A DNA stretch of 64,000 nucleotides, taken from contig CAJXKC010000004.1 of NCBI GenBank assembly GCA_913055685.1, positions 1-64,000 of the forward strand, written 5' to 3'. A program made the translations under genes and the position numbers. This document shows, piece by piece, positions 4,490 through 58,296 of the stretch. The notes under the pieces are model-generated. The model made no database searches. It saw nothing but the letters and a program-made list of their open reading frames with translations, and was not told the DNA's origin. Position 1 is the first letter of the stretch. The number at the start of each line of letters is the position of its first letter. The stretch is from an uncultured Flavobacteriales bacterium (GTDB taxonomy: Bacteria > Bacteroidota > Bacteroidia > Flavobacteriales > Schleiferiaceae).

Positions 4490-4888
4490 ATGAAAGCAAA
4501 TCTCAGATCAATTCAAAAGCAACGTCGTTACTCGGAAGAGTTTAAGCGCTCGATAGTTTCTGATTACGAGTCAGGGAAGTATAGTGTTTTGCAGCTGGAG
4601 CGACTGCACGGCGTTGGGAACCCTACCATTTACAAATGGATTTATAAATATTCTACCTTTAACCAAGAAGGTTATAGAGTCGTGGAAAGTAAATCAAGTA
4701 GTCAATCCAAGGTCAAGGATTTAGAAAGGAAGGTAAGGGAGCTGGAAGCCCTTTTAGGCCGTAAGCAAGTAAAGATAGAGTACCTAGAGACCATGATGGA
4801 GGTCGCTAAAGAGGAACTTAATATCGACATTAAAAAAAACTTCGACACCTCACAATCCAACGGTTTAAAAGGCGGAAAGCAAAGATGA
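4490..4888 (+). CDS. IS3-family transposase OrfA (helix-turn-helix subunit)
   Basis: The 132-residue DNA-binding subunit that recognises the IS ends. Residues 11-50 form the HTH_Tnp_1/IS3 OrfA domain (RRYSEEFKRSIVSDYESGK, then NPTIYKWIYKYS), and residues about 70-110 form a leucine-rich coiled coil (VKDLERKVRELEALLGRKQ), typical for OrfA multimerisation. Its ATGA stop overlaps the orfB ATG. A slippery heptamer A AAA AAC lies in phase at 4834-4840, so both a separate OrfA and an OrfAB fusion may be made. Confidence 0.93.
   Translation: MKANLRSIQKQRRYSEEFKRSIVSDYESGKYSVLQLERLHGVGNPTIYKWIYKYSTFNQEGYRVVESKSSSQSKVKDLERKVRELEALLGRKQVKIEYLETMMEVAKEELNIDIKKNFDTSQSNGLKGGKQR
4834..4840 (+). promoter_or_regulatory. 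candidate programmed -1 ribosomal frameshift site
   Basis: The heptamer A AAA AAC sits in the orfA reading frame (codons AAA 4835-4837 and AAC 4838-4840). After a -1 slip the new frame reads AAA AAA CTT and stays open into orfB; the nearest in-frame stop in that frame (TAA 4831-4833) is immediately upstream of the slip site. This is the X XXY YYZ form used by IS3 elements to make the OrfAB transposase. Frameshifting itself is inferred. Confidence 0.75.
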
Positions 4889-5727
4889 GCTTCTCATTAA
4901 ATGCGCTTTACCGAGAAGCTGGTTTAAGCAAGCAGGCGGTTGATCAGTACCAGCGCCGTCAGCTCCTGTTTGATAACAGGCTGCGCCAATTAGTTCTCGA
5001 AGCAGACGAGCTGCGAGAAGAACACCCAGGTTGTGGGGTTAGCAAGATGTATAGCATCCTCAATCCAGACTTTATAGGTCGGGATCGATTTATTGAGGTA
5101 CTAATGGAGCTGGGTTACCGATTAAAGAAAAAGAAGAATTATCGGCGCACCACTATTGCAGGCAACAAGTTCTATCCCAACTTGATAAAAGGCTTAAAAG
5201 TAGACGGCCCTTCCCAAGTATGGCAAAGTGATATTACTTATATCCCTTTGGGAAACAGGCATTACTATGCCACTTTTATCATTGATGTGTACACTAAGAA
5301 GATCGTTGTTTACCAACTTACAGACCACATGCGTGCTACCGCAAACGTCGCTGCACTTAAGATGGCGCTAAAGGATCATGCTCCTCCGAATATCCATCAT
5401 TCGGATCGAGGTAGTCAATATACCTACAGCGCTTACGTTGAGCTTTTGCGTGAAAATGGCTGCCAGATAAGCATGGCCACATCTGCTCAGGACAATGCTT
5501 ATGCGGAAAGAATAAACTTAACCATCAAGGAAGAATATCTTGATCATTGGCGTCCTCAAGACTTTAAACAGCTAAAAAAGTTTCTTAGCAAAGCAGTTTT
5601 GAATTACAATCAAAAACGACATCACAATAACCTTGGCAAAGTGAGTCCTGCTAACTTTGAAAAAAGTCTTTCGGGGATGCACCCCCGAAAGATCATTACG
5701 ATCTTTAATAATGAAGTGTTAACCTAA
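4885..5727 (+). CDS. IS3-family transposase OrfB (DDE integrase core)
   Basis: Catalytic subunit of 280 residues. An HTH_21-type segment (residues about 38-90) precedes the rve integrase core, whose acidic triad reads as D116 (WQSDITYIP), D174 (HHSDRGSQYT) and E208 (NAYAERIN). Spacing between the last two is 33 residues, slightly shorter than the 35 of the standard IS3 DD(35)E core, because the loop before the Glu is two residues shorter. No disruption is seen. Translation may start at the ATG overlapping the orfA stop, or arise by -1 frameshift from orfA. Confidence 0.95.
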   Translation: MSFSLNALYREAGLSKQAVDQYQRRQLLFDNRLRQLVLEADELREEHPGCGVSKMYSILNPDFIGRDRFIEVLMELGYRLKKKKNYRRTTIAGNKFYPNLIKGLKVDGPSQVWQSDITYIPLGNRHYYATFIIDVYTKKIVVYQLTDHMRATANVAALKMALKDHAPPNIHHSDRGSQYTYSAYVELLRENGCQISMATSAQDNAYAERINLTIKEEYLDHWRPQDFKQLKKFLSKAVLNYNQKRHHNNLGKVSPANFEKSLSGMHPRKIITIFNNEVLT

Positions 5728-13681: not shown

Positions 13682-16015
13682 ATGACAAGATTCTCTGCCC
13701 TCCTCTTATTTGTCTTCTTCAGTTTTAGTCAGCAGCTAAGCGCCCAGACCAACGGAACCATCCGTGGTTTTGTATATGAGAAAGACAGCGAGGAGCCCAT
13801 TCCTTTTGCTAATATTGCCATTGAAGGAACTAAATACGGAGCCAGTGCTTCCGAAAGTGGTTTTTACATCATCGATAATGTACCCGCCAAAACCTATAAG
13901 GTAACGGCGAGTTTCATCGGTTATGAAAATCAGACGGTAGACGTGAAGGTGGAAGCCGGTAAAATTGCCAGCCTCAACTTTTACCTCTCCGAAGGCTCAG
14001 AAATCTTAGAGGAGGTCGAAATTTCAGCGGCTCGAAAGGAGCGGAATACTAAAGTGCTTACTTCGGTAGTGAGTCTAGATCCCAAGGAAATTACCCGCTT
14101 TTCGGTGGGGGGCGATGCAGACATTATTAAGGCAGTGCAGGTTTTACCGGGGGTTATTACTACGGGCGACCAAGGTGGTCAGCTGTACATTCGCGGGGGA
14201 GCGCCCATTCAAAACTTAATTTTATTGGACGGAATGATTGTCTACAATCCTTTCCATAGCATTGGCTTCTTCTCGGTTTTCGATAATGATATCATCCGTT
14301 CGGCAGATATTCATACCGGTGGCTTTTCGGCCGAATACGGCTCTCGGAATTCAGCGGTAATGGACATCAAAACCCGCCATGGTAACCGCAAACGTTTATC
14401 AGGTAAAGTAAGTGCCAGTACCTATACGGCGAAGGCATTGCTAGAGGCACCCCTAGGTAAAAAGAACGAACGTGGCTTCTCCAACTCATCGGTATTGCTT
14501 TCGGCTAAAACTTCCTATTTAGACCAAAGCTCGCAGATTTTTTACCCATATGTAGAAACTGAATTCGATGGTTTACCATTCTCTTTCACCGATATCTACG
14601 GTAAATTTAGTTCGCATGCCGACAATGGCTCGCAGGTAAATTTATTTGCCTTTAGCTTCGACGATGCGGTACGCTACGGCTTAAACAACAGTATTGATTG
14701 GAACTCACGTGGGGTTGGTGGTAATTTCGTTGCAATTCCTGCAACCTCTAAAGTTTTAATGTCGGGTGATGTAAGCTACAGCTATTACGACATTAACTCG
14801 ATTGAAGGGAACTTGCTACAAACTTCCAGTATTGCGGGTTTTAATGGGGGTTTAGATTTAACCTATTTCTTCCGCAAGGCGGATGAGCTTAAAGTAGGGG
14901 TGGAGGCCATTACCTATACTACCGACTTCGAAGTGGATGCGCCTTTAGGTCGCAGTGTAGAAATTCGTGAGAATACCACCGAATTAGGGACCTATGCCCG
15001 TTACCGCTATTCTTCCAATCGCCTCATTGCCGAACCGGGTTTACGGGTGCATTATTATGGTAGTCAGGCTGAGGTGAGCATCGAACCCCGCCTGGGTATT
15101 AAATACAACATTAACGATTGGCTACGCTTAAAAGCCAGTGGGGGTTGGTATTCACAAAACTTGATGGCAGGTAATTCCGACCGCGACGTGGTGAACTTAT
15201 TCTACGGCTTCTTAAGTGGAGTACCTTTGGGTAGCTTGCCCAATAACTTCCGCGGGGAAGAAATTACCAGCAGCTTGCAAAAAGCTACCCATGCGGTAGT
15301 TGGTTTTGAAGTAGAGCTTTCTAAGAATCTTACCATAAACCTTGAAGGCTATTTGAAGGACTTCGAGCAAATTACCAACCTTAACCGTAATAAGATTTAC
15401 GAGGAGGGCAGTAGTGCCGCCATTGGTAAACCCGATATTTTGGTAAAGGACTTTGTGGTGGAGCGCGGTTTAGCGCAGGGAATCGACTTATTGGTAAAGT
15501 ATAGCAGTAAGAATTTATACCTCTGGGGCGCCTATTCATTGGGTAAGATTACCCGTGATGATGGTATTACCGAGTACTTCCCCAACTTCGACCGCCGTCA
15601 TAACTTAAACTTGGTGGGGAACTATCTATTTGGCAAAGACAATTCTTGGGAGCTTAGCTTGCGTTACAACTTCGGTACTGGATTCCCTTTTACCCCTACC
15701 CAATTGTTTTACAGCGAGCAGCCTTTTGTGGATGACCGTGGGCAAAGCGCCATCGATTACGATTACACCGACGCTAATGGTCAGCCTGGTGTACTATACG
15801 GTGAGCTTAATACCCGTCGTTTACCTAATTACCATAGGGTAGATATCAGCATCACGAAGGATTATCAGATTACCGAAAACCAACGTTTGGAGGTTTCGGC
15901 GGGAGCGACCAATATTCTTAATTACCAGAATATTTTCTACTACGACCGTAATGCCAATAAACGGGTAGATCAGTTGCCAATCATGCCTACCGTATCCTTG
16001 GCTTATACTTTCTAG
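13682..16015 (+). CDS. TonB-dependent receptor with carboxypeptidase-regulatory-like domain
   Basis: Outer membrane receptor of 777 residues. A signal peptide (cleavage about 21, SAQ) is followed by a carboxypeptidase-regulatory-like beta sandwich (GTIRGFVYEKDSEEPIPFANI, about 25-110), a plug domain (VQVLPGVITTGDQGGQLYIRGG, about 150-180), and a 22-strand type barrel ending in the aromatic terminus SLAYTF. The plug sequence GVITTGDQGGQLYIRGGAP resembles receptors for ferric siderophores or small ligands, but the ligand cannot be named. No SusD partner is adjacent. The stop codon overlaps the convergent glycosyltransferase gene by four bases. Confidence 0.9.
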   Translation: MTRFSALLLFVFFSFSQQLSAQTNGTIRGFVYEKDSEEPIPFANIAIEGTKYGASASESGFYIIDNVPAKTYKVTASFIGYENQTVDVKVEAGKIASLNFYLSEGSEILEEVEISAARKERNTKVLTSVVSLDPKEITRFSVGGDADIIKAVQVLPGVITTGDQGGQLYIRGGAPIQNLILLDGMIVYNPFHSIGFFSVFDNDIIRSADIHTGGFSAEYGSRNSAVMDIKTRHGNRKRLSGKVSASTYTAKALLEAPLGKKNERGFSNSSVLLSAKTSYLDQSSQIFYPYVETEFDGLPFSFTDIYGKFSSHADNGSQVNLFAFSFDDAVRYGLNNSIDWNSRGVGGNFVAIPATSKVLMSGDVSYSYYDINSIEGNLLQTSSIAGFNGGLDLTYFFRKADELKVGVEAITYTTDFEVDAPLGRSVEIRENTTELGTYARYRYSSNRLIAEPGLRVHYYGSQAEVSIEPRLGIKYNINDWLRLKASGGWYSQNLMAGNSDRDVVNLFYGFLSGVPLGSLPNNFRGEEITSSLQKATHAVVGFEVELSKNLTINLEGYLKDFEQITNLNRNKIYEEGSSAAIGKPDILVKDFVVERGLAQGIDLLVKYSSKNLYLWGAYSLGKITRDDGITEYFPNFDRRHNLNLVGNYLFGKDNSWELSLRYNFGTGFPFTPTQLFYSEQPFVDDRGQSAIDYDYTDANGQPGVLYGELNTRRLPNYHRVDISITKDYQITENQRLEVSAGATNILNYQNIFYYDRNANKRVDQLPIMPTVSLAYTF

Positions 16016-30432: not shown

Positions 30433-32919
30433 ATGCGCTTTAGAGCCATATTCTTCCTCTTCATTTTATCTACCTCTTTAGGCGCTCAATCCAAAATATT
30501 CGGCCTTATTAAAGGTCCGAAGGGGCAAGGATTAGACGGGGTAAAGGTTACGGTTGGTGAATTCTACACCCTCAGTAATAATGATGGTAGCTATGAGCTG
30601 GAAATCCCGGCCGCAAAAAAGCAAATCGTTTACTTCACCAGCTTTGGCTATATCCCCGATACGGTTCATTTTAATCTTGCCAAGGATGAAGAAAAAGAGA
30701 TCAATCGTAATCTTATCCTGCTTAGTAATATCCTAGAAGATGTAGATATCGTCGACCGTAAGTCGCGCTTCGATAATCAAGTTAGTGTAGACAAGAAATC
30801 GATTGAGGCTTTTGTAGGTCCCAATTCGGGGGTAGAGGGTATTATCAAAACCCTTCCTGGGGTAAGTAGCTACAGTGAACTGTCATCGCAGTACTCGGTG
30901 CGGGGTGGTAATTTCGACGAGAACTTGGTTTACATCAATGGCATAGAAGTTTACCGTCCTTTCTTGGTGCGCAATGGCCAGCAAGAGGGGATGAGTATTG
31001 TAAACTCGGCTATGGTTTCTAATGTAAAGTTCTCGGCTGGAGGTTTTGAAGCCCGCTACGGCGATAAAATGGCTTCGGTTTTAGACATTACTTACCGCAA
31101 ACCCAGCGAGTTTGCCATGACGGTTGAGGGAAGCTTACTCGGCGGCAATTTGGTCTACGAAGACCGCTTTGCTAAAGATCGCTTAAGCGCCATGGTCGGA
31201 GCCCGTTACCGCACCAATCAACTATTGCTAGGTTCATTAGATACCGAAGCCGATTTTGTGCCTCAGTTTACCGATATTCAGGCTTACCTTACTTACGACC
31301 TAAGCGACGAATGGGAGCTTAATTTTCTCGGGAATTACAGTCGAAACTTATATCAAGTAGTGCCTACTAGTCGCACGACCGATTTTGGTACCATTCAAGA
31401 ATCATTGCGACTAAATGTATTTTTTGATGGCCGCGAGGATTATGATTTTACCACGCGCTTTGCCGCTCTAGGCGCTAAGTATCGCCCGAAGAAAAACCTT
31501 CAACTCATCTTTCAGTCTTCCGTTTTTCAAACTACCGAACAAGAGTATTTCGATGTTATCGGCGCCTATCGCTTAGGGGAACTCAATAATAATTTGGGCA
31601 GCGACGATTTTGGTGAAATTAGCTTTACCCGCTCAGTGGGGGCCTTTCAGAACTATGCCCGAAACTACCTCGATGCCATAGTGGCCAATATATCCCATCA
31701 AGGTATTTACGATTTGGATGAAGTTACCTGGCGCTGGGGAGTGAAGCTGCAAATGGAGGATATCATCGACCGCTACAAAGAGTGGGAGCGAATCGATTCT
31801 GCCGGTTTTAATGTGCCAAATAATAGCGGCTTTAATTACGACTCCCTTATTGTTACTACGGTGGATGCTCAAGGGAATCCCCGTGCAGGCGAAGTGTATA
31901 CCTCTATCTTGCAGGAAAACCAACTCGATTTATTTGAGAGCTTCGATTCCAAAGTTTCGTTAAATTCATTGCGAGCAACCGCCTTTGTGGAGCGCAGTGA
32001 AATCATCGATCTCGAGGGTAAAGGCGACTTATTTTATAATGTTGGACTACGTAATCAATTCTGGACCTTTAATGGTCAGAATGTGCTTTCCCCGCGAGCC
32101 AGCCTAAGCTGGAAGCCCAATTGGGAAAAACGCGATATGGTATTTCGTATCGCCGCTGGTTTTTATTACCAACCACCCTTTTACCGAGAGATGCGAAATT
32201 TGGATGGTGGGGTAAATGAGAATATTCGTGCCCAGCGCGCCATTCATTTTGTCTTGGCCAATGATTACCAATTACGAATTTGGAACCGTCCTTTTAAAAT
32301 GGTTACCGAATTGTATTACAAGTCGATGAACGACCTTATTCCTTACGATCAGGACAATGTTCGGATTCGCTATCGCGCAGTTAATAATGCCCGCGGCTTT
32401 GCCACCGGTATCGATTACCGCATCAATGGGGAATTTGTAAAGGGAATTGACAGCTGGGCTTCCATATCTTTAATGACTATTCAGGAGGATATTGAAGGCG
32501 ATGGTGCCGGTTATTTACCGAGGCCAACCGACCAACGCTTAAATTTTAAAATCTTCTTCCAAGACTATTTACCCAACGACCCTAGCTTTAGGGTAAGCCT
32601 CACCTTAGCCTATGGAACCGGTTTGCCTTTTGGTCCGCCTCAAGCCCTCCCCGAAGATCGAGTATTCCGTTTACCCGATTATCGCAGGGTAGACATCGGC
32701 TTTTCTAAGGTGTTGATTAGAGAGGGGAGAAGCTATGAGAATAAATTTGTGAATAGCTTTAATAGTCTTTGGATAGGAGTAGAAGTCTTTAACCTATTGG
32801 ATATAACCAATACCATTAGTTATCTCTGGGTTAAGGATATCAGCACCGCGCGTCAGTATGCGGTGCCAAACTACTTAACCCCGCGATTGTTGAATGTAAA
32901 AATGGTCGCTAAGTTTTAA
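30433..32919 (+). CDS. TonB-dependent receptor
   Basis: Outer membrane receptor of 828 residues with signal peptide (about 1-19), carboxypeptidase-regulatory-like N domain (KIFGLIKGPKGQGLDGVKV), plug (IIKTLPGVSSYSELSSQYSVRGGNFDENLVYINGIE, split about 137-172) and a beta barrel that ends in MVAKF. The plug contains the usual RGG and ING motifs. No SusD partner follows. Starts three bases after the previous stop, so it shares its mRNA; the ligand is unknown. Confidence 0.9.
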   Translation: MRFRAIFFLFILSTSLGAQSKIFGLIKGPKGQGLDGVKVTVGEFYTLSNNDGSYELEIPAAKKQIVYFTSFGYIPDTVHFNLAKDEEKEINRNLILLSNILEDVDIVDRKSRFDNQVSVDKKSIEAFVGPNSGVEGIIKTLPGVSSYSELSSQYSVRGGNFDENLVYINGIEVYRPFLVRNGQQEGMSIVNSAMVSNVKFSAGGFEARYGDKMASVLDITYRKPSEFAMTVEGSLLGGNLVYEDRFAKDRLSAMVGARYRTNQLLLGSLDTEADFVPQFTDIQAYLTYDLSDEWELNFLGNYSRNLYQVVPTSRTTDFGTIQESLRLNVFFDGREDYDFTTRFAALGAKYRPKKNLQLIFQSSVFQTTEQEYFDVIGAYRLGELNNNLGSDDFGEISFTRSVGAFQNYARNYLDAIVANISHQGIYDLDEVTWRWGVKLQMEDIIDRYKEWERIDSAGFNVPNNSGFNYDSLIVTTVDAQGNPRAGEVYTSILQENQLDLFESFDSKVSLNSLRATAFVERSEIIDLEGKGDLFYNVGLRNQFWTFNGQNVLSPRASLSWKPNWEKRDMVFRIAAGFYYQPPFYREMRNLDGGVNENIRAQRAIHFVLANDYQLRIWNRPFKMVTELYYKSMNDLIPYDQDNVRIRYRAVNNARGFATGIDYRINGEFVKGIDSWASISLMTIQEDIEGDGAGYLPRPTDQRLNFKIFFQDYLPNDPSFRVSLTLAYGTGLPFGPPQALPEDRVFRLPDYRRVDIGFSKVLIREGRSYENKFVNSFNSLWIGVEVFNLLDITNTISYLWVKDISTARQYAVPNYLTPRLLNVKMVAKF

Positions 32920-49406: not shown

Positions 49407-49862
49407 TTAGCGTTCTCTGTGTGGTCGTCGTCGAAGCTCTTGCATAAGTTTTCGATGGAACTCAACTTCAATGCGATAGTAGGTTGCTGCCTTGCGCTTT
49501 CCTACTGCCGAACTGAACTTTTCGAGATAATCCAATTTAACCGCGGCAATCTTACTTTGGTCCTCCAATTCTTTTCGCGTGAATTTTTCGAGTTCTTCAT
49601 CACTGTGCTTATCCCAGTTCTTTAGCATCTTATGTCTTTTAAACTCTTGCTGGCGTCGATCGTGAATGGCATCTAATGCCTTTCGATATTCATTATAAAC
49701 CGGCCAGAATTTTTGCGCCTCTTCCGGACTTAAATCCAGTTCTTCGGTGATGTATTTGGTTTTAAGCAATTCAATTTGCTTAAAGTCCTTGGGTTGCGCC
49801 AATAAACTTGTACTTATCAATAAAAAGCATAAGCTGAGTAGGGTGAATTTATAAGTATTCAT
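49407..49862 (-). CDS. Spy/CpxP-like periplasmic protein
   Basis: Exported helical protein of 151 residues (signal peptide about 1-22, SLLAQ). The mature part is charged and helical, with a LDLSPEEAQKFWPVYNEY segment like the LTxxQ region of Spy/CpxP and many RR/KR pairs toward the C terminus. Such proteins often act as sensors or chaperones of envelope stress; that role is inference. It overlaps the preceding anti-sigma-like gene by 14 bases in the sigma factor operon. Confidence 0.7.
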   Translation of the reverse strand: MNTYKFTLLSLCFLLISTSLLAQPKDFKQIELLKTKYITEELDLSPEEAQKFWPVYNEYRKALDAIHDRRQQEFKRHKMLKNWDKHSDEELEKFTRKELEDQSKIAAVKLDYLEKFSSAVGKRKAATYYRIEVEFHRKLMQELRRRPHRER

Positions 49863-50217
49863 AGCTACGGTTGTCTAAATAGTGTTCTAATTCTTGTAGG
49901 TCTATTATTTGCCAGTCGTTCTCGCTGCTATCACTCAGCTCTAAAAAGCTTTCGGGGTGCACCGCATAAGGATCTTCGCTTAAAAACTCCAAAACCTGTT
50001 CGGAATGAAGGTTGCTAAATTCCATTTTATCCTGACTATGTTCTGTGGGGAAAAGGATAATTGCTACTACAATACTGGCCGCCGCAGCTAACCATGGCCA
50101 TAAGCGTAAAGGGCTAGGTTTGCTGCTCAACGGTTCAGCTTGGCTTATTTCCTTCAAACTTTCTTTTCGCTGCTCGAAGTAATTATCCGGTATTTTAAAT
50201 CCTTGCTCTTTCATCAA
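49849..50217 (-). CDS. putative anti-sigma factor-like membrane protein
   Basis: Protein of 122 residues with a single transmembrane helix (about 43-61: LWPWLAAAASIVVAIILF), short cytoplasmic N terminus (KIPDNYFEQRKESLKE) and acidic periplasmic tail. No classic zinc anti-sigma motif (HxxxCxxC) is present. Its place between an ECF sigma gene (11 bases upstream) and a Spy-like gene suggests that it controls the sigma factor. Function inferred from position. Confidence 0.65.
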   Translation of the reverse strand: MMKEQGFKIPDNYFEQRKESLKEISQAEPLSSKPSPLRLWPWLAAAASIVVAIILFPTEHSQDKMEFSNLHSEQVLEFLSEDPYAVHPESFLELSDSSENDWQIIDLQELEHYLDNRSYEYL

Positions 50218-50228
50218 ATATTTGAGTA

Positions 50229-50759
50229 TTAGTTTTCCGGAAGGTTTAATTGGCTTTTAATTTTTTGTTTGGCATGATGATACGAAGCTTTTAAAGCTCC
50301 GACGCTGGTTTCCAAAACCTCGCTCATCTCGGCAAATGGCATGTTTTGAAAATACTTGAGTTGGAATACTATCCTCTGTTTTTCGGGTAGCTGAGATAAG
50401 GCATCGATTAATGCCTGCAAAGCAGCATCGCCATCAAAGTACACATCCGATTGCAATTGAAAATTAAAGGCTTCGTCTCCCAGCTGTAGGCGTTTTTCTT
50501 TTTTCAAATGACCAAGGGCTTCACGGCTGGCAATGCGGTAGAGCCAGGTGTATAACTGAGACTCACCGCGAAACTTAGCCAAGGCCTTCCAAACTTTGAT
50601 GAAGGTTTCTTGCAAGACGTCGTCGGCCCAATCATGACGCATCACGATACTACGTATATGCCAATAAAGAGGCTCCGAAAGATGGTCTACCATTTCCTTA
50701 AAGAGCAAATCATATTCTTGATTGGCTAAATATGCTTTCCAGTGATCTGGTTCTTGCAT
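50229..50759 (-). CDS. RNA polymerase ECF sigma factor
   Basis: Sigma-70 family ECF factor of 176 residues. Region 2 spans WADDVLQETFIKVWKALAKF and LYTWLYRIASREALGHLKKE; region 4 spans LPEKQRIVFQLKYFQNMPFA and EMSEVLETSVGALKASYHHA. Both conserved regions are intact. Heads a three-gene operon with a TM protein and a Spy-like protein, and faces the lipoprotein array across a 197-base spacer. Confidence 0.93.
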   Translation of the reverse strand: MQEPDHWKAYLANQEYDLLFKEMVDHLSEPLYWHIRSIVMRHDWADDVLQETFIKVWKALAKFRGESQLYTWLYRIASREALGHLKKEKRLQLGDEAFNFQLQSDVYFDGDAALQALIDALSQLPEKQRIVFQLKYFQNMPFAEMSEVLETSVGALKASYHHAKQKIKSQLNLPEN

Positions 50760-50929: not shown

Positions 50930-50937
50930 TATATTTG
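50930..50937 (+). promoter_or_regulatory. -7 box TATATTTG upstream of the lipoprotein array
   Basis: TATATTTG matches TAnnTTTG exactly, 19 bases before the first lipoprotein ATG. A TTG lies 14 bases upstream of it, shorter than the usual 17-23, so the -33 element is uncertain. The rest of the spacer (50760-50929) is AT-rich and shows nothing else. Confidence 0.6.
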
Positions 50938-50956
50938 TGCCAAATATCTATTACCC

Positions 50957-52318
50957 ATGAAAAGAAGTTTAATCCTTTCAGCCTTGTTGGGACTAGTCCT
51001 AGCTAGCTGTAATAAAGAGATTTCGGAGCCGGTCCAAGACGACCCCACCACTCCGGAAGATACGCGTATCGGAATTCGTTCTGGATCCGAATTGGACGCA
51101 GAATTACTGAGCTTAAACAGTTCCTTTCAAATAAATCCCAAAGCGGCCGCAGGTTTAGAGTATGTGTATAAAAATTATGCTACTCCGCCTAATGTTATTG
51201 CCTATGATGATAATGTTGGTTCTTACAGTGGTACGACTGTGGCAACTGCTGCTACTAGCGTTTCTACAGTAGACGATATCGTGTTCGTTACTTGGCACGT
51301 CGAAGGTCAGCAAATGGGTGGTGCTATTTCAGCTTACAAGCTTAACCCTTCTACCCAGACTTACGAGTACACCTCGGTGATTACTTTCGATGATACCGAT
51401 TTCCATGAAGCCACTGCGGTTAAGGATCCATTAAATGGGCACCATCAGGTATTTGTAGTTGGACAACGTTCTCCAAGTACTTCAGGCTATTTATTAGCAG
51501 GTCACCGTGGTGCCATTGTTGGTCGGGTATTGTATAATTACATAACGGATCAGTTTGAAGCACCTTCTACCTATAAAGAATTACCCCTACCTAGTTTTGG
51601 TGCAAATGGAATCATTACCAGTGCGGGTAAATATTATGTTGTTACGGGTAATGGACAAGGTTCTACTACTATAGATCAAGGTGGTCTCTACGTAGTGGAT
51701 TACAACCTTACGAATGTGAGTGAAGCAGCGGATTTAGTAGATGGCGAAATGATTGCCTTTGATCCATTTACCGCTTCTCCTACCGATGTAGACTATGTGG
51801 TTTTAGAGCGTAATACCTCTAGTTCGCTTACCCTTCATTACGGTATGAACACTACTTCAACCGTTAGCAATAGTATCTGGGCTAACTCTATTTCAGAATC
51901 AGGTTTAGTTTCAATAGACGTGGAGCGTCAAGGATTGGCCTTTATTACCAGCGATACCGTTATGGTAGCGGCGGGACGTAATGGTTTATACTATGCAGAA
52001 ATTGGCGGTGTAAGTCCAAGTTTTGCTGGAACCGTTCCAACTGGTGTGTACAGTGCACTGGGAGTAGCCTACGATAATTCTGCCAAGGTAATTTATTGTG
52101 CCGCATCAGACGGGGGAGTACCTGTTTTAGCGAGTCACGGATTCCCTGGAGGCGTATTAATCAACACCTTTGATGTAGTCGGATACTTTGTTCCTCCTAC
52201 CGGTGGTGGTCTTCCCGCTAGTTTTAATGTAAAAGACGTTTCAGTATACTGGTCTGATTACATCGCTCTGGCAACAGGTGATGCAGGCGTATACTTTGTG
52301 AAAAAGAATAATCTCTAA
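50957..52318 (+). CDS. lipoprotein, tandem array copy 1 (subtype A)
   Basis: Unrecognised secreted lipoprotein of 453 residues. The signal MKRSLILSALLGLVLASC has a lipobox Cys18. After an acidic linker follow blocks shared with the other three copies: IVFVTWHVEGQQMGGAISAY, TFDDTDFHEA, VVGQRSPSTSGYLLAGHRGA, ELPLPSFGANGI, YVVDYNLTNVSEA, IYCAASDGGVPVLASHGFPG and the C-terminal GVYFVKKNNL. The repeated beta-rich hydrophobic strands suggest a beta propeller or sandwich (LVIVD-like), which is inference. First gene of the array; downstream gene follows after 27 bases. Confidence 0.75.
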   Translation: MKRSLILSALLGLVLASCNKEISEPVQDDPTTPEDTRIGIRSGSELDAELLSLNSSFQINPKAAAGLEYVYKNYATPPNVIAYDDNVGSYSGTTVATAATSVSTVDDIVFVTWHVEGQQMGGAISAYKLNPSTQTYEYTSVITFDDTDFHEATAVKDPLNGHHQVFVVGQRSPSTSGYLLAGHRGAIVGRVLYNYITDQFEAPSTYKELPLPSFGANGIITSAGKYYVVTGNGQGSTTIDQGGLYVVDYNLTNVSEAADLVDGEMIAFDPFTASPTDVDYVVLERNTSSSLTLHYGMNTTSTVSNSIWANSISESGLVSIDVERQGLAFITSDTVMVAAGRNGLYYAEIGGVSPSFAGTVPTGVYSALGVAYDNSAKVIYCAASDGGVPVLASHGFPGGVLINTFDVVGYFVPPTGGGLPASFNVKDVSVYWSDYIALATGDAGVYFVKKNNL

Positions 52319-52345
52319 CAACCAACCCACTTTAATATTACTATC

Positions 52346-53686
52346 ATGAAAAAGTTGTTATTCGGCCTATCTGCGGTAGCACTTTTAGCATCTTGTAACC
52401 GAGATGTTGAAGCTACTGAGCCTACTGGAGGCGACAACCTCGCCGTTGTGTCCGGGATGCAGATCGTTGACATGAATGAAGGATTTACCATTACTGGTAA
52501 AAGTGCCGCTACGGCCCTTAATTACACCTACATTAACTATGGTTTTCCTCCTAATGTTGGCGGTGTTGATTTAGAAGCGGTTTCTTCGGTAAGTATCCGC
52601 GATGTGGTATTTGTTACTTGGCATGCTTTAGACCTTGATGGTGGCGGTGACCCTATCACAGTTGGGGCATTATCAGCATACAAATACAATACATCTACCG
52701 GTAAATATGAGCACAAGCATACCATTAGCTTTAATGATGCTGAGTACTATGAAGCGGTGGCTAATATGAATTCGGCTACTGGCATGTACGAAGTATTTGC
52801 GGCAGGTCAGCGTGACCCCGATGCTTCTGGTTATTTATTAGCTAATCACAAAGGCGCGGTAGTTACTCGCGTAGATTACAACTATATCACTGATCAGTGG
52901 GATTTAAGCTCTAAGCGTGAATTACCACTACCTAGTTCTGCCGCTACTGGTATTGCCGCCGCGGCAGGTGCTTATTATGTGACTACTGGTAACGGTACTG
53001 GCGCTGGTCCAAACATCGGCGGAGTTTACCGGGTAGATTATAACCTAACTAATGTATCGGCGGCTCAGTCATTGACTGATGCTTTAGCGGTAGAAACTCA
53101 CCCTGGTGTAACTCCTCCTAGTGCCAACATGACCTTCTTATGGCGTGATGGTAGTCAGTTGAATGTAGATTACAACTACCTTGTAAATCAGACGCTACAT
53201 GCTAATGTTGGCTATCCATTTAACTCGGCGCCTTTAACAGCAGACGGTAACATTGTTTCGGGTATTGGAGCGGATATTGACAACGAGCGTTTCGATATCA
53301 CCTTTACGGTAAATACGGGAACCACTACATCTTTAGACAGTATTATTATCGCTGCTGGTGATAATGGTATGTATTTAGCCTCAGACCTAAGTACTGCTAA
53401 GGCCAGTTATGGATACTGCTACAGCACCGCTTACGATCCAGGTGCAGGAGTGGTATACTACTGTTCTGGTGAAGGTGGCGTTTATGTAATTGCCACTGCA
53501 GCATTTGGCGGGGTACTTTCTAGCGATTGGGATTTAGTTGGAATTTTTGCTCCTCCATCCAATACTACTATTGGTGGTACCACGCTTCCTACTAACTTCG
53601 ATATTAAAGAGATTAATGTTTATCAATCCAATAAATTAACCTTGGCCGGTGGTATCGGCGGAGTTTACTTTATGGAGTTGAATTAA
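52346..53686 (+). CDS. lipoprotein, tandem array copy 2 (subtype B)
   Basis: Paralog of the previous gene, 446 residues, lipobox in MKKLLFGLSAVALLASC (Cys17). Subtype B features: SIRDVVFVTWHALDLDGGGD, EYYEAVANMNSATGMYEVFA, AGQRDPDASGYLLANHKGA, LPLPSSAATGIAAAAGAYYV, and a Cys pair in ASYGYCYSTAYDPGAGVVYYC absent from subtype A. C-terminal GGVYFMELN. The pair could form a disulfide. Spacing 46 bases to copy 3. Function unknown. Confidence 0.72.
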   Translation: MKKLLFGLSAVALLASCNRDVEATEPTGGDNLAVVSGMQIVDMNEGFTITGKSAATALNYTYINYGFPPNVGGVDLEAVSSVSIRDVVFVTWHALDLDGGGDPITVGALSAYKYNTSTGKYEHKHTISFNDAEYYEAVANMNSATGMYEVFAAGQRDPDASGYLLANHKGAVVTRVDYNYITDQWDLSSKRELPLPSSAATGIAAAAGAYYVTTGNGTGAGPNIGGVYRVDYNLTNVSAAQSLTDALAVETHPGVTPPSANMTFLWRDGSQLNVDYNYLVNQTLHANVGYPFNSAPLTADGNIVSGIGADIDNERFDITFTVNTGTTTSLDSIIIAAGDNGMYLASDLSTAKASYGYCYSTAYDPGAGVVYYCSGEGGVYVIATAAFGGVLSSDWDLVGIFAPPSNTTIGGTTLPTNFDIKEINVYQSNKLTLAGGIGGVYFMELN

Positions 53687-53732
53687 TACGTGAGGGGGTA
53701 TTTAACTCACTTATTAATCAACTAATCTATCT

Positions 53733-55250
53733 ATGAACAAAAGAATCCTAGCTTTACTTGGTGCAGGCCTGCTGGTCGGAGCTTGTAACAAGGGAACCTC
53801 TTTACAGGGGCCGGTAGGCGCTGATGCAAGTGATATTGTGTCGGTTTCCTACACACCACCAATGAGAGATTTAAACCAGTCTTTTACCGTAAGCGGTAAA
53901 GCAGCGAGTCTCTCTTACACTTACAAAAATTACGGTACTCCTCCTATCGGAGTAGACGTAACGGGTAACAATTACGTATGGCTTAGCGCTACCGCTACGT
54001 CGGCTATTCGAGACGTAGTTTTCGTTACTTGGCATTACAATGGTTCTACCGGGGCAAACCTGCAAACCCGTTCGGGAGCAGTGAGTGCTTACAAGTGGAA
54101 TGGTACTAATTATGTATACACTGATCAGGTGGTTTTTAACCAATCGGAGTATTACGAATTAGAGACCAATCTGAATACCGGTACCGGTCGTTATGAAGTA
54201 TTTATGGTAGGTCAGCGTGATCCCGACGCTTCGGGGTATTTATTATCGGGCCATGGCGGTGCGGTAGTAACGCGACTCGACTATAACTACATCACCGATG
54301 AGTTCGATCAGAGCTCCTTTAAGCAATTACCCTTACCTGGGTCGGCAGCTACCGATATTGTAGCGGCTGCGGCTTCTTATTACATTACCACCGGCAGCGG
54401 TATTGGTAGCGATAACAGCTCCGATGCCCAAGATGGTGGAGTGTTTAAAACCGATTACAGTCTTACCAATGTTTCGGAGGCTTATCAATCGGCTAGTCGA
54501 GATGACTTCCAGGCTATTGCTATTGCTCCAGGAGCGAATGCTACGGATGCCAAGATTTCGGTATTAGAAAAAGCCAACCGCAATGCTTTGCGTGCTTGGA
54601 CTGTTTTCGATGTCGATAATAACCTAAACACCATGGGAGCTAATAATTACGGCCTTGGCAGAACTAATGCTGATGCCGGCGTAATAGAAGTGGTAGGTGA
54701 TACAGCCTCTGCCATTGCAGCCGGTTATTTCGATCCGGTTACCGAAAGACTTCCTAGTCTAACCGACTTAGAGCGTTTTGGAATGGTTTGGGCACAGGAT
54801 GATAGCAGTCCGCTTAGTGACGCTAATCTTCTAATTGCCGCTGGCGATTGGGGACTGTTCACCGCAAAGGCTTTTAATCCTGCTGCACCTGTTGATACCG
54901 CACCTCAGTTCTTAGCGAATCACGGTTATTGTGCTAATGTCGCTTTCGATAGTATTAGCGAAGTAATTTATTACTGTGCGGCGAGTGGCGGTTTGGCCTT
55001 AATCGCATCCGATAACTTTAATGGCGGTGTTTTGTATAATGCAGGTGACTTCATCGGTAAGTTTGTGCCTCTTACTGGCGGCGGACTTCCAGCTGATCCG
55101 ACTCCTTATTTAAGTGGAACCCTTCCTCTTCCTGATTTACCCGCTGAGTTTGTTGTAAAAGAAGTGTCACTTTATGGCGCCCCTAATGGCAGCCAGCAAA
55201 TGGCCATAGCCACCGGTGAAGGCGGTGTCTATTTTGTTCAAAGAAATTAA
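53733..55250 (+). CDS. lipoprotein, tandem array copy 3 (subtype B)
   Basis: Largest paralog, 505 residues; signal MNKRILALLGAGLLVGAC (Cys18). Subtype B marks: AIRDVVFVTWHYNGSTGANL, GQRDPDASGYLLSGHGGA, LPLPGSAATDIVAAAASYYI, and the Cys pair in NHGYCANVAFDSISEVIYYC. Compared with copy 2 it has extra residues around the middle (DAQDGGVFKTDYSLTNVSEA to LSDANLLIAAGDWGLF) and before the end (SGTLPLPDLPAEFVVKEVSL). Spacing 18 bases to copy 4. Confidence 0.72.
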   Translation: MNKRILALLGAGLLVGACNKGTSLQGPVGADASDIVSVSYTPPMRDLNQSFTVSGKAASLSYTYKNYGTPPIGVDVTGNNYVWLSATATSAIRDVVFVTWHYNGSTGANLQTRSGAVSAYKWNGTNYVYTDQVVFNQSEYYELETNLNTGTGRYEVFMVGQRDPDASGYLLSGHGGAVVTRLDYNYITDEFDQSSFKQLPLPGSAATDIVAAAASYYITTGSGIGSDNSSDAQDGGVFKTDYSLTNVSEAYQSASRDDFQAIAIAPGANATDAKISVLEKANRNALRAWTVFDVDNNLNTMGANNYGLGRTNADAGVIEVVGDTASAIAAGYFDPVTERLPSLTDLERFGMVWAQDDSSPLSDANLLIAAGDWGLFTAKAFNPAAPVDTAPQFLANHGYCANVAFDSISEVIYYCAASGGLALIASDNFNGGVLYNAGDFIGKFVPLTGGGLPADPTPYLSGTLPLPDLPAEFVVKEVSLYGAPNGSQQMAIATGEGGVYFVQRN

Positions 55251-55268
55251 TCTATACCCACTACTATT

Positions 55269-56702
55269 ATGAAAAAATTAAGTCTAATCTTGATGGCAGG
55301 TATCACCTTAGTGGCCTGTAATCGTGAGATCTCTACTGCAGAAGATCCAGCTAACTCTAATCGCATTGCCGTGCGCAGCGGTGGCGAAATTGCGGGTGAA
55401 CTACACCCGATGAATGAAACAGTAACTGTTTCTGGTAAGAATATGGTAACTCCTCAGAGCTATACCTACCAAGCTTTCGCTGAAGGTCCAGGTAACTTAG
55501 CTTATACCAAAGAGGATTTCACCAATGGTTTAACCACTGGTTTCTCTGACTCTGCTCAGGCTACCGCTATTTTCCCAGTAGACGACTTCTTATTCGTTAC
55601 TTGGCACTTAGAGCATGAAGAATTTGGTGGTGCAGTTTCTGCCTACCGTTATAATTCAGGTACTCAGACTTATGATTACTTAAGTATCGCTACTTTCGAC
55701 GATACCGATTTCCATGAGTTACATGCCTCTAAGAACAGTTTAACTGGTTACTACGAAATCTTTTTAGTTGGTCAGCGTAGTCAGGCTACTTCTGGATATG
55801 TGCTTCAGGGTCACCGTGGCGCTATAGTGGGCAAGTTATTGTTTAACTATATCAATAATACTTTCAATGTTGGTGCCTACAAGGAATTACCGCTTCCAGG
55901 TTTTGGTGCTAATGATATCATGTCCGCTGGTGGTAGTCTTTATGTAGTTACCGGTAACGGCCTAGGGCTGCCCTCTGGTGCATTTGGAGGAAACGAATTC
56001 TCAGGTGTTTTCAAAACCGACCCCGCTTTAACTAATGTTTCTCAAGCTTACACCTTAACCGATGGTATCGTTTTAGAGGTAGATCCATTTAACTCTTCTC
56101 CAAGCGCTGCAAATTATGCCTTGATTGACTTTAGTCAAAATGGCGGCATGAATATGAAGACCTATTATGATTTATCTAGTACGAATCCTCTTTCATCTTT
56201 AGCAACTGCAAGTAGCACTACAGTTAATGTTGGCGGGGCTGCGAATTTCAGAGATCGTAGTGGTGCAGCTTTTGTACCAGCAACTTATGATATTAATGGT
56301 AATGTTACTTCAACTGCATTGGTAATGGCAGTAGGTCTACTTGACGGTATGCATGTGGTAGATGTGACAACCGGGACGGCCACGGAATTGACAAACACCA
56401 ATGTTTGGAGAGGTCAGTCAGTAGCCTATGACCATTCAACCAAAATTATTTATGTCGCTGCAGCTGATCAAGGAATGATGATGCTAGCTGCACCAGGTTA
56501 TCCTGGTGGAGTATTGGTTAATGATTACGATAATGTGGGTATTTTTGCGCCTCCTACAAGTGCTCCACTTTCTGCTCCAGAATTCAACGTTAAAGACGTT
56601 TCAATTTACCAAGCTAACAATATTGCCATCGCCGTGGGTGGTGCCAATGTGGGTAGTACAAAGCCTGCTAAAGGTGGGGTATACTTTACCCGTCGCAACT
56701 AA
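55269..56702 (+). CDS. lipoprotein, tandem array copy 4 (subtype A)
   Basis: Paralog of 477 residues, closest to copy 1: signal MKKLSLILMAGITLVAC (Cys17), then RIAVRSGGEIAGELHPMNET, PVDDFLFVTWHLEHEEFGGA, IATFDDTDFHEL, GQRSQATSGYVLQGHRGAIV, ELPLPGFGANDIM, and a C-terminal GGVYFTRRN. The position of the subtype B Cys pair holds V and A here. Last gene of the array; a strong terminator follows. Confidence 0.72.
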   Translation: MKKLSLILMAGITLVACNREISTAEDPANSNRIAVRSGGEIAGELHPMNETVTVSGKNMVTPQSYTYQAFAEGPGNLAYTKEDFTNGLTTGFSDSAQATAIFPVDDFLFVTWHLEHEEFGGAVSAYRYNSGTQTYDYLSIATFDDTDFHELHASKNSLTGYYEIFLVGQRSQATSGYVLQGHRGAIVGKLLFNYINNTFNVGAYKELPLPGFGANDIMSAGGSLYVVTGNGLGLPSGAFGGNEFSGVFKTDPALTNVSQAYTLTDGIVLEVDPFNSSPSAANYALIDFSQNGGMNMKTYYDLSSTNPLSSLATASSTTVNVGGAANFRDRSGAAFVPATYDINGNVTSTALVMAVGLLDGMHVVDVTTGTATELTNTNVWRGQSVAYDHSTKIIYVAAADQGMMMLAAPGYPGGVLVNDYDNVGIFAPPTSAPLSAPEFNVKDVSIYQANNIAIAVGGANVGSTKPAKGGVYFTRRN

Positions 56703-56734
56703 GGCATAGGGTAAAAAAGATAGATTAGTGAGAA

Positions 56735-56762
56735 GGCATCCCGCGAGGGGTGCCTTTTTTTT
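56735..56762 (+). terminator. terminator of the lipoprotein array
   Basis: GGCATCCC pairs with GGGGTGCC (one wobble) around a GCGA loop, followed by eight T. The next 220 bases to 56985 show no recognisable gene or motif. Confidence 0.92.
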
Positions 56763-56985: not shown

Positions 56986-58296
56986 TTAGAAACGATAACC
57001 TACGGTGAGTCCCAGCGTAATAATTTGCAGGTAATCGTTCTGTACACTAAAGTTCTCCTGACGCGTAAGAATTAATTCAAACCGCGTATACATGCGGTCG
57101 GAAGCCAATTTTTGATAGGCAAAACCCAGGTATTGGTTGTCGAGGCGGTAATCGTCGATGGCTAAACCATTGGTAAGGAAGAAAATACGCTCATCGGGTA
57201 CCACACCGCCTCCAAATATTATCTGGAAATAATCGCCCTTGCCACTAAAGAAGCGACGGTAGAGGAAATTGTAGGTAGTTCCCCAGCCCGTAATATCATT
57301 AATTACAAAGGGACGGAACATTGCGTAGTTGTTTCCCCAATAATAACCTAAGGAACCGGTATACATGACCACTCTATTGGTTAGGAAATCCAGGTAGCGA
57401 ATTCCTAAACTGGCCTCAAATGGGGTATTGAAAACCTTAGTAAAATACTCCGCTCCCGCTCTAAAGTTGGGGTAAATCTGAGAAGGGGAGTAGCCTACAT
57501 TTAAATAAGCATAGGAGTTACGCGTAATGCGTGGATATACATCAATTTCTCCTTGAACCCCAAAGGAAGGGGTATTGGGCTGAAAGCGCTCAGCTGCATT
57601 TAAGCGCGCAATCACCGCTCCAATAGGGGTTTGGCGACCGTATTGCACAAAGCCATACAGCCACGGATTGTAGTTTTTAGTGAAATAATCGACATAAACG
57701 CCCACCGCCAAACCATCAACGATTAGTTGGTTTAGTAAAAAGGTCTTCAGCTGATTAAGCTCATTACTTTCAGGATAGTGCTTTAAAGCCTCATTAGTAG
57801 CGTCTAGCGCTTCGTGTAAATCGTTTTTACTGGTAAGGGCTTGGGCTTTTTGAGTGTGGAAATATTCATTTTGCTTTGGGAAACGCTTAATGCCGTCGTC
57901 GCAATAGCGAATACACATTTCATAATCCTTATCGTAAAGTTCGTTAAGGGCGCGTAGTTTATAAACCTCAATGGCATTAGTATCTTCCGCCAACCACATC
58001 CCAATTTCCTCCCGGGCAGTTTCATGTTTTTTCTGCCATAGAAAAGTGCGGAGTCTAAAGATTTTTACTTCGTAGTTATCTGGATCTTCAAGCAGTAAGA
58101 CGTTTAAGAGTTTGCGTGAAGCTTCATATTCTTTTTTAAAAGCCAAATCGCGGGCCTGCATAAAGGCAGAGTCAGCATTGGCCGAAATCATCATTACTTC
58201 TACTTCCGAGCTATCTGCACTCGCTGTAGTATCCGTCTGTCCTTTAAGCGAAAAGCTAAGGGCCAGTAAACTAAAAATGAGAAGTATCTGCTTCAT
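56986..58296 (-). CDS. TPR plus outer membrane barrel protein (YaiO family)
   Basis: Exported protein of 436 residues. Signal peptide (about 1-19, SLKGQ), a helical TPR region (about 40-190: DLAFKKEYEASRKLLNVLLLEDP, YDKDYEMCIRYCDDGIKRFP), then a beta barrel (about 200-436) with aromatic strands (YAYLNVGYSPSQIYPNFRAG, FEASLGIRYLDFL, YFQIIFGGGVVPDERIF) ending in GLTVGYRF. This TPR-plus-YaiO barrel layout is known in Bacteroidota. Substrate unknown. Co-directional with the transketolase operon but separated by a hairpin. Confidence 0.8.
   Translation of the reverse strand: MKQILLIFSLLALSFSLKGQTDTTASADSSEVEVMMISANADSAFMQARDLAFKKEYEASRKLLNVLLLEDPDNYEVKIFRLRTFLWQKKHETAREEIGMWLAEDTNAIEVYKLRALNELYDKDYEMCIRYCDDGIKRFPKQNEYFHTQKAQALTSKNDLHEALDATNEALKHYPESNELNQLKTFLLNQLIVDGLAVGVYVDYFTKNYNPWLYGFVQYGRQTPIGAVIARLNAAERFQPNTPSFGVQGEIDVYPRITRNSYAYLNVGYSPSQIYPNFRAGAEYFTKVFNTPFEASLGIRYLDFLTNRVVMYTGSLGYYWGNNYAMFRPFVINDITGWGTTYNFLYRRFFSGKGDYFQIIFGGGVVPDERIFFLTNGLAIDDYRLDNQYLGFAYQKLASDRMYTRFELILTRQENFSVQNDYLQIITLGLTVGYRF

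Follow-up and report, generated by a model that had tools for sequence, protein, structure and literature searches.

BtuG of Bacteroides is described as a seven-bladed β-propeller lipoprotein that captures B12 and caps a TonB-dependent transporter; BtuG2 has a net charge of −18, and several BtuG paralogues occur per genome (PMC10404256). XusB, of the DUF4374 family, is likewise presented as a seven-bladed propeller lipoprotein, one that captures xenosiderophores and caps a TonB-dependent transporter (PMC13142918). BamI is described as a propeller-containing component of the Bacteroidota BAM complex, with six blades and a further N-terminal domain (PMC12578637). The present analysis concerns a tandem array of four paralogous lipoprotein genes on contig CAJXKC010000004.1 (assembly GCA_913055685.1) of an uncultured Flavobacteriales bacterium of the Schleiferiaceae, of which positions 1 to 64,000 were analysed and are referred to below as the window. 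The array family resembles BtuG and XusB in anatomy but belongs to neither, whether judged by sequence family or by gene neighbourhood. The reading favoured here, at a probability of roughly 0.45, is that the array encodes outer-membrane-anchored binding propellers, which would act as parallel or cooperating modules and work like BtuG and XusB without being members of those families.

Gene array, predicted fold and candidate binding face

The four genes are complete and lie head to tail on the plus strand at 50957-56702 (Table 1), with spacers of 27, 46 and 18 bp. A lipobox is present in 4/4 products (LASC in copies 1 and 2, VGAC in copy 3 and LVAC in copy 4), in agreement with the initial annotation of this locus, which had reported four adjacent, co-directional lipobox genes at these distances. 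The copy-specific motifs that it listed are also all present in the translations: FDDTDFHE and HRGAIV are common to copies 1 and 4, and IRDVVFVTWH, RDPDASGYLL and the GYC...YYC cysteine pair to copies 2 and 3. Pairwise identity between the copies is 35-46% over 413-449 aligned residues, and copy 1 as query retrieves copies 4, 2 and 3 at E-values of 5.9e-99, 2.1e-70 and 5.7e-49, so the similarity of the four is not a matter of chance. When the eight contigs (2.96 Mb) of the window's own genome were searched at protein level with copy 1, nothing beyond the four array genes matched.

AlphaFold2 models of copies 1 and 2, built from an input of 19 sequences, reached predicted local distance difference test (pLDDT) scores of 84.4 and 81.1 and predicted template modelling (pTM) scores of 0.86 and 0.84, respectively. 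The best VIA match of copy 1 was Asc1/RACK1 (Z 31.4, root-mean-square deviation (rmsd) 2.9, 300 residues) and that of copy 2 was a ribosome chain of the RACK1/Asc1 type (Z 30.1, rmsd 3.4, 295 residues); both matches span almost the full length of the RACK1-type chain. For these models such matches indicate fold, not function. A β-propeller, offered as a guess in the initial annotation, is thus predicted for both modelled copies, and copies 3 and 4 would be propellers as well by homology to them. The order of strands in the predicted model is consistent with seven blades of four strands each, blade 7 being completed by an N-terminal strand; the count is the authors' own reading. Each protein would accordingly consist of a signal peptide, a lipidated cysteine, a variable linker of ∼ 40 residues and one β-propeller.

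The copies differ most in one sector of the predicted propeller. With blade borders drawn by the authors from DSSP of the model, identity between the window copies is 0.46-0.53 in blades 1-3, 0.48 in blade 7 and 0.41 in blade 6, and falls to 0.19 in blade 4 and 0.25 in blade 5. Copy 3 is the longest of the four, and the insertions fall in the blade 4-5 region. In an alignment of 31 proteins that reaches a second family of the phylum, His114 is conserved in 31/31, Arg171 in 28/31, Ser176 in 29/31, Tyr178 in 30/31 and His183 in 30/31. By DSSP of copy 1, the second-strand ends of blades 1, 2 and 3 carry His114, Arg171 and Thr230-Gly231, respectively, and the loop after the second strand of blade 2 carries Tyr178 and His183; from these strand and loop positions the conserved residues would cluster on one face.

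Conservation of polar residues in nearly all 31 proteins, the distant family included, could also be explained if the proteins were enzymes, with the conserved His, Arg, Tyr and His forming a hydrolase- or lyase-like site and the substrates differing by copy. Many β-propellers are indeed enzymes. However, Arg171 is replaced by Ser in three long paralogues (described below) and His183 by Trp in a single-copy relative, G024, and no enzyme family in Pfam or NCBIfam matched the array proteins above chance; catalysis is considered quite unlikely.

Table 1. Features of the array and its flanks (window coordinates).
Feature	Position	Strand	Basis
Probable anti-sigma-like protein, one hydrophobic stretch (weak)	49849..50217	-	NF052375 E 0.021, below cut-off; no Pfam match
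Extracytoplasmic function (ECF) sigma factor, divergent from the array, conserved neighbour	50229..50759	-	Sigma70_r2 1.7e-14, Sigma70_r4_2 3e-14
TATATTTG, similar to the -7 element of Bacteroidota promoters	50930..50937	+	27 nt before ATG
CTATTACCC leader, immediately before the copy 1 ATG	50948..50956	+	Pattern comparison
Copy 1, subtype A lipoprotein (LASC), predicted seven-bladed β-propeller, 453 aa	50957..52318	+	Open reading frame (ORF), AlphaFold2, trees
Copy 2, subtype B lipoprotein, predicted β-propeller, 446 aa, Cys358/Cys373 pair	52346..53686	+	ORF, AlphaFold2, trees
Copy 3, subtype B lipoprotein, 505 aa, Cys400/Cys415 pair	53733..55250	+	ORF, trees; fold by homology to copies 1 and 2
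Copy 4, subtype A lipoprotein, 477 aa	55269..56702	+	ORF, trees; fold by homology
Terminator-like hairpin, 13 pairs, with T run, after copy 4	56730..56759	+	Terminator scan
Tetratricopeptide repeat (TPR) + YaiO outer-membrane barrel protein, convergent, conserved neighbour	56986..58296	-	PF19413 1e-50

Searches of the four copies against Pfam, NCBIfam and PADLOC gave no named family, only sub-threshold matches and the Pfam lipid-attachment model LPAM_1, which scored above its cut-off in copy 2 alone, and the remark in the initial annotation that the family was not recognised is borne out. Across 22 array proteins (the window copies and those of the genus), Pfam found a lipid-attachment site in five and otherwise single or double matches with best E-values of 0.029-0.22. 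The LVIVD repeat (PF08309) had no match in any of the four copies up to E 10 and appeared only in relatives, at E 0.022-0.052 and under the Pfam gathering score. The NCBIfam YncE model NF052280 had none in the four copies and reached 13.8 bits against a cut-off of 400 in G024. Overall, matches of the LVIVD/YncE type are confined to relatives and all lie below cut-off (E 0.019-0.052). DUF4374 gave no Pfam match in the four copies up to E 10. One weak chain from a sequence search of solved structures (2lio_A, E 0.022) was not used. Among literature titles and the beginnings of abstracts, a scope that leaves most subscription journals outside, no paper on this array was found.

Comparison with the described systems gives likeness and difference side by side. 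With BtuG, the array shares the build of a seven-bladed Bacteroidota lipoprotein, a strongly acidic character (net charge after the lipobox is −15 to −35 across the 22 array proteins) and several paralogues per genome, but it has no adjoining BtuB-type transporter and no named-family match. The seven-bladed lipoprotein build is shared with XusB too, whose homologues differ in inserted-loop position; nevertheless, DUF4374 is absent from the four copies and neither a TonB-dependent receptor nor a PepSY gene stands beside the array. The LVIVD and YncE proteins have a similar blade signature by eye, and Escherichia coli YncE is one of the VIA matches of copy 1 (Z 29.9, rmsd 2.7, 290 residues), yet the four copies match neither model. 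BamI, with six blades and its extra N-terminal domain, differs from the one apparently seven-bladed domain of the array proteins.

If the array does encode binding propellers, the lipid anchor would sit in the outer membrane, and a shared site for ligand or partner may lie on the face bearing the strand B-C loops of blades 1-3 (His114, Arg171, Ser176, Tyr178, His183 and Gly231), with the variable blades 4-5 giving each copy its own specificity. The bound partner could be a small ligand for uptake or an envelope or exopolymer component, two options that the data do not distinguish.

Several observations weigh against this proposal. β-Propellers have a wide range of functions, and most of the best structural matches are to eukaryotic WD40 proteins, which carry no functional message. 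Strand order is the sole basis for placing the conserved residues on one face, and the substitutions of Arg171 and His183 noted above affect the putative site itself. No TonB-dependent receptor stands beside the array in the window (Pfam) or in four congeners (by sequence), unlike btuBG and xusABC; the window does hold two receptor-like ORFs, recognised by eye, at 13682-16015 and 30433-32919, but these are 35 and 18 kb off, respectively, and nothing links them to the array. Finally, the lipoprotein export signal of Capnocytophaga, given as K-(D/E)2 or Q-A-(D/E)2 after the cysteine (PMC5080379), is absent from 4/4 copies (CNKEISE, CNRDVEA, CNKGTSL and CNREIST). The Capnocytophaga rule may not be that of this lineage; neither the surface location assumed in the initial annotation nor a periplasm-facing one is established.

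Subtypes, gene order and probable separate expansion

Relatives were collected by profile searches. The four-copy profile matched 8/59 genomes, the window's genome counted, and a 22-protein profile matched 7/88 genomes of the same family, 10/395 of the order and 5/395 of the phylum, in samples that overlap and include the window's genome; the order and phylum searches scored four candidates per genome, and distant relatives were possibly missed. A contig scan with the four-protein alignment gave no relative, and its repeat with 22 proteins gave seven loci. Candidates rejected on inspection were G029 (E 5.9e-4), a 253-aa lipoprotein of unrelated sequence not recovered with the larger alignment; G221, G275 and G373 (E 1.7e-4 to 8.9e-4), in which the match is limited to the first 62-103 positions, G275 and G221 proving on reading to be unrelated lipoproteins similar at their N-terminal ends only; and L053, a 703-aa protein matched across 49 residues only. 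After four weak N-terminal matches had been dropped, the family was present in 6/7 genomes of the genus and, outside it, in a single genome from another genus (G024) and in four members of a distant family (f38). In the seventh genome of the genus, G006, the array was not found, but the contig ends 409 bp past YaiO on the array side, a distance within the array-YaiO spacer range seen elsewhere (283-1110 bp), so that the locus is unreadable.

The division into A (copies 1 and 4) and B (copies 2 and 3) subtypes, first drawn from shared motifs, corresponds to real clades in full-length and half-protein trees. In a tree of the 22 array proteins the branch between A and B has support of 100/99; with outgroups (27 rows) B is supported at 92/89 and A at 85/81, and in the half-protein trees the branch bounding B reaches 94/92 in the N-terminal half and that bounding A 97/98 in the C-terminal half. 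In the 22-protein tree, copies 1 and 4 cluster with the gene that ends each congener array and copies 2 and 3 join the first three congener genes, and the congener positions B1, B2, B3 and A each form a clade of their own.

Comparison of copy number and order in relatives, which the initial annotation had suggested, shows B1-B2-B3-A in G001, G004 and G005, B1-B2-B2-B3-A in G003 and a single gene in G024; in G002 the array is split over contigs and its A gene adjoins YaiO. The order A-B-B-A is found in 1/5 readable arrays, that of the window's genome alone. The four intact congeners have B-B-B-A (in one case B-B-B-B-A), so that, as far as the readable arrays go, A-B-B-A is peculiar to the window's lineage.

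Copies 2 and 3 are sisters with support of 97/95 at full length and 99/95 in the N-terminal half, a grouping not recovered with support in the C-terminal half, and they fall outside the congeners' B1-B3 clade (100/99). Topology tests rejected copy 2 with B1, copy 2 with B2, copy 3 with B3 and copy 1 with B1 (approximately unbiased test, p-AU 4e-5, 2e-11, 2e-6 and 7e-24), as well as all four window copies as one group (p-AU 0.0015). The trees contain long branches, and the join of copies 2 and 3 was flagged by the tree tool as one of long rows and possibly false. Their grouping is supported by the cysteine pair, 15 residues apart, which 0/18 congener copies possess. The sister relationship outside the B1-B3 clade, together with the rejected placements, indicates that B probably expanded separately in the window's lineage and in its congeners. 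The nested duplication that the initial annotation read from the A-B-B-A order is not demonstrated, nor do the data require it: copies 2 and 3 are sisters, but neither copy 1 with copy 4 (p-AU 0.279) nor copy 1 with the congeners' A (0.207) is rejected.

Strong purifying selection acts on the congener genes. For orthologues of G001 and G005 at the four positions, the ratio of non-synonymous to synonymous divergence (dN/dS) is 0.013, 0.031, 0.035 and 0.012; it is 0.09-0.17 in the three computable G003/G004 pairs and 0.10 between the two B2 copies of G003. The synonymous divergence between copies called for in the initial annotation does not date the window copies, whose dS is saturated (2.0 to 5.4, or not computable). 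Between G001 and G005, B3 (L047:8378-9781 / L040:10459-11862) has a dS of 1.2 against 0.38-0.46 in the other three copies, perhaps through local recombination with a more distant strain.

The tandem layout and the variable sector of the paralogues might also be those of a variation cassette, a set of four surface copies, silent or expressed in turn, whose recombination alters antigenicity or adhesion. This is highly improbable. A search for exchanged tracts among the window copies (direct repeats of at least 30 nt) found only 104 nt at 70% and 31 nt at 65-81%, none of them near-identical, and no recent exchange among these copies is apparent. Moreover, the A/B split is present in both protein halves, dN/dS is 0.012-0.035 for the closest congener pair, a leader precedes every congener B gene (see below), and no recombinase was seen among ORFs of at least 100 aa at 44-64 kb. 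The 'diversity set' suggested in the initial annotation is disfavoured by the low dN/dS, the position-for-position orthology among congeners and the lack of exchanged tracts.

Some further members lie apart from the arrays. Long paralogues of ∼ 600-680 aa occur in G002-G004 (L041:6862-8820, L042:6060-8102 and L043:351-2150), with a C-terminal extension of ∼ 250 residues past the propeller-like part that has no Pfam match; protein and profile searches found none in the window's genome. The 652-aa long paralogue of G003 has a TonB-dependent receptor (PF00593 5.6e-39) as its immediate upstream neighbour (the pair spans L041:4224-8820), a link that is weak since the G004 counterpart lacks that neighbour. 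On a short contig binned as Balneolaceae, a B2-like gene adjoins a transposase-like ORF recognised by eye (L051:133-3297), perhaps through transfer or misbinning. An ORF at L037:1-1257 starts like an AMP-binding synthetase (by eye) and ends like a B3 C-terminus, and is probably a misassembly of the metagenome-assembled genome.

Expression signals, site and neighbours

The nine-base leader CTATTACCC stands shortly before the ATG in 13/13 B genes of the four intact congeners, with TAnnTTTG just upstream of it in 11/13. The congener A genes lack CTATTACCC (0/5) and TAnnTTTG (four searched over 220 nt upstream, that of G002 read over 90 nt). Five loci together have 130 ORFs of 120 aa or more; CTATTACCC lies at most 45 nt from the start in 13 of these, every one an array gene, and this count missed one further B gene whose ORF was called with an earlier start. 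In the window both elements occur at copy 1, an A-type gene, and are absent from copies 2-4. Upstream of that leader lies TATATTTG, which resembles the -7 element of Bacteroidota promoters; it begins 27 nt before the ATG, as against 39-41 nt in the congeners' first genes.

The terminator scan covering the array gave 10 matches in all on both strands (shuffles 5.6 +/- 2.8). Apart from the long hairpin after copy 4, no plus-strand hairpin in the array exceeds 7 pairs, and these shorter ones all fall within coding sequence. In G003, where the scanned stretch gave 14 matches (shuffles 8.9 +/- 2.6), a terminator-like hairpin follows each of the five genes; G001, G004 and G005 also show hairpins of this kind in their intergenic gaps. 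With the elements only at copy 1 and a single long hairpin after copy 4, the window array is most simply read from sequence as one operon, and the congener arrays as separate transcription units. The copies would thus be made together in the window's genome and, in congeners, from separate units with a common leader.

These layouts also bear on whether the four proteins are subunits of one hetero-oligomeric envelope complex, in which every copy would have its own fixed place and stoichiometry would hold their number near four. The window and 3/4 intact congeners have four copies and the fourth has five, probably through separate expansions; the window genes share an apparent operon, and each congener position is a clade under strong constraint. 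However, two A and two B in the window against one A and three or four B in congeners means that subtype stoichiometry is not kept, the congener genes look like separate transcription units and a single-copy relative exists, so that such a complex is judged unlikely.

The leader was also assessed across whole genomes, where a CTATTACCC regulon is not supported against a reversed control. Counts of CTATTACCC followed by ATG against control were 16:7 (G000), 16:13 (G003), 19:28 (G005), 21:10 (G004), 13:10 (G009) and 17:13 (G024). With TTTG upstream they were 6:1 (G000), 7:2 (G003), 9:4 (G004), 6:4 (G005), 6:8 (G001), 14:4 (G022), 6:2 (G009), 5:5 (G002), 4:4 (G006), 5:5 (G024) and 2:6 (G019). Of 15 places read outside arrays, 14 are inside an ORF on either strand and one is not. 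The long paralogues carry CTATTACCC within their first codons if a GTG start is taken. A LytTR-like upstream repeat, seen by eye as TTCGTC motifs before A and B2 genes, is not claimed; its counts against control were 3:6 (G000), 3:2 (G003), 6:0 (G004), 4:3 (G005) and 0:5 (G024).

Both in the window (Pfam) and in G001, G003, G004 and G005 (by sequence), the array is flanked by an ECF sigma operon that diverges from it and a TPR-YaiO gene that converges on it. At the corresponding site G024 has a single 411-aa homologue (L044:7285-8520), which shows that the site is old and that a single-copy state exists; the array is a lineage-specific tandem expansion at a position where another genus has just one gene of the family. 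In G013, also of another genus, FkbH, acyl-carrier and MBOAT genes and a sub-threshold GDSL match lie between the same neighbours (L166:3386-7801), which gives the site the look of a landing place for envelope genes. A distant single-copy homologue (L087:6936-14518) lies in an exopolymer-like cluster near glycosyltransferase, TackOD1 response regulator (weak GGDEF), HlyD and OEP genes. Elsewhere in the window, an ORF at 4885-5727 resembles an IS3-type transposase by eye, and Rfam at gathering scores gave tRNAs only in the four sources searched.

Such neighbours raise the alternative that the copies form a scaffold, either structural or for envelope homeostasis, under the control of the neighbouring ECF sigma operon and with a link to surface polysaccharide. 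Conservation of the ECF sigma operon and YaiO beside the array fits this idea, as does the gene content of the G013 site, which resembles that of polymer acylation clusters; in the distant family 2/4 homologues lie beside glycosyltransferase-like genes, the Pfam-scanned one with HlyD and OEP as well. On the other hand, the neighbourhood is its only basis, the stretches inspected beside the remaining two distant homologues showed no cluster of this kind, and no sigma-specific promoter was recognisable. A scaffold role is regarded as improbable, and binding propellers of the BtuG/XusB type remain the preferred explanation.

Implications for the family

The four proteins represent a family without a name, of a familiar kind, with an unusual and repeatedly expanded tandem layout. 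A fuller description, still doubtful, would be an undescribed set of lipidated propellers with a constant sector (blades 7, 1, 2 and 3, with a His/Arg/Tyr/His dock) and a variable sector (blades 4-5) that gives specificity; starting from one syntenic ancestral gene, it would have reached about four copies independently in two lineages within one genus, with a nine-base leader kept before each separately transcribed B gene. The expansion in close relatives, into a different set of four or five, is a hint of long-term selection acting on this set of proteins. In gut Bacteroidota, what can be captured from the surroundings depends on propeller lipoproteins, BtuG and XusB among them. If the proposal is correct, a family that expanded at least twice at one site, with constant and variable blades, would offer a compact system for testing how new specificities arise.

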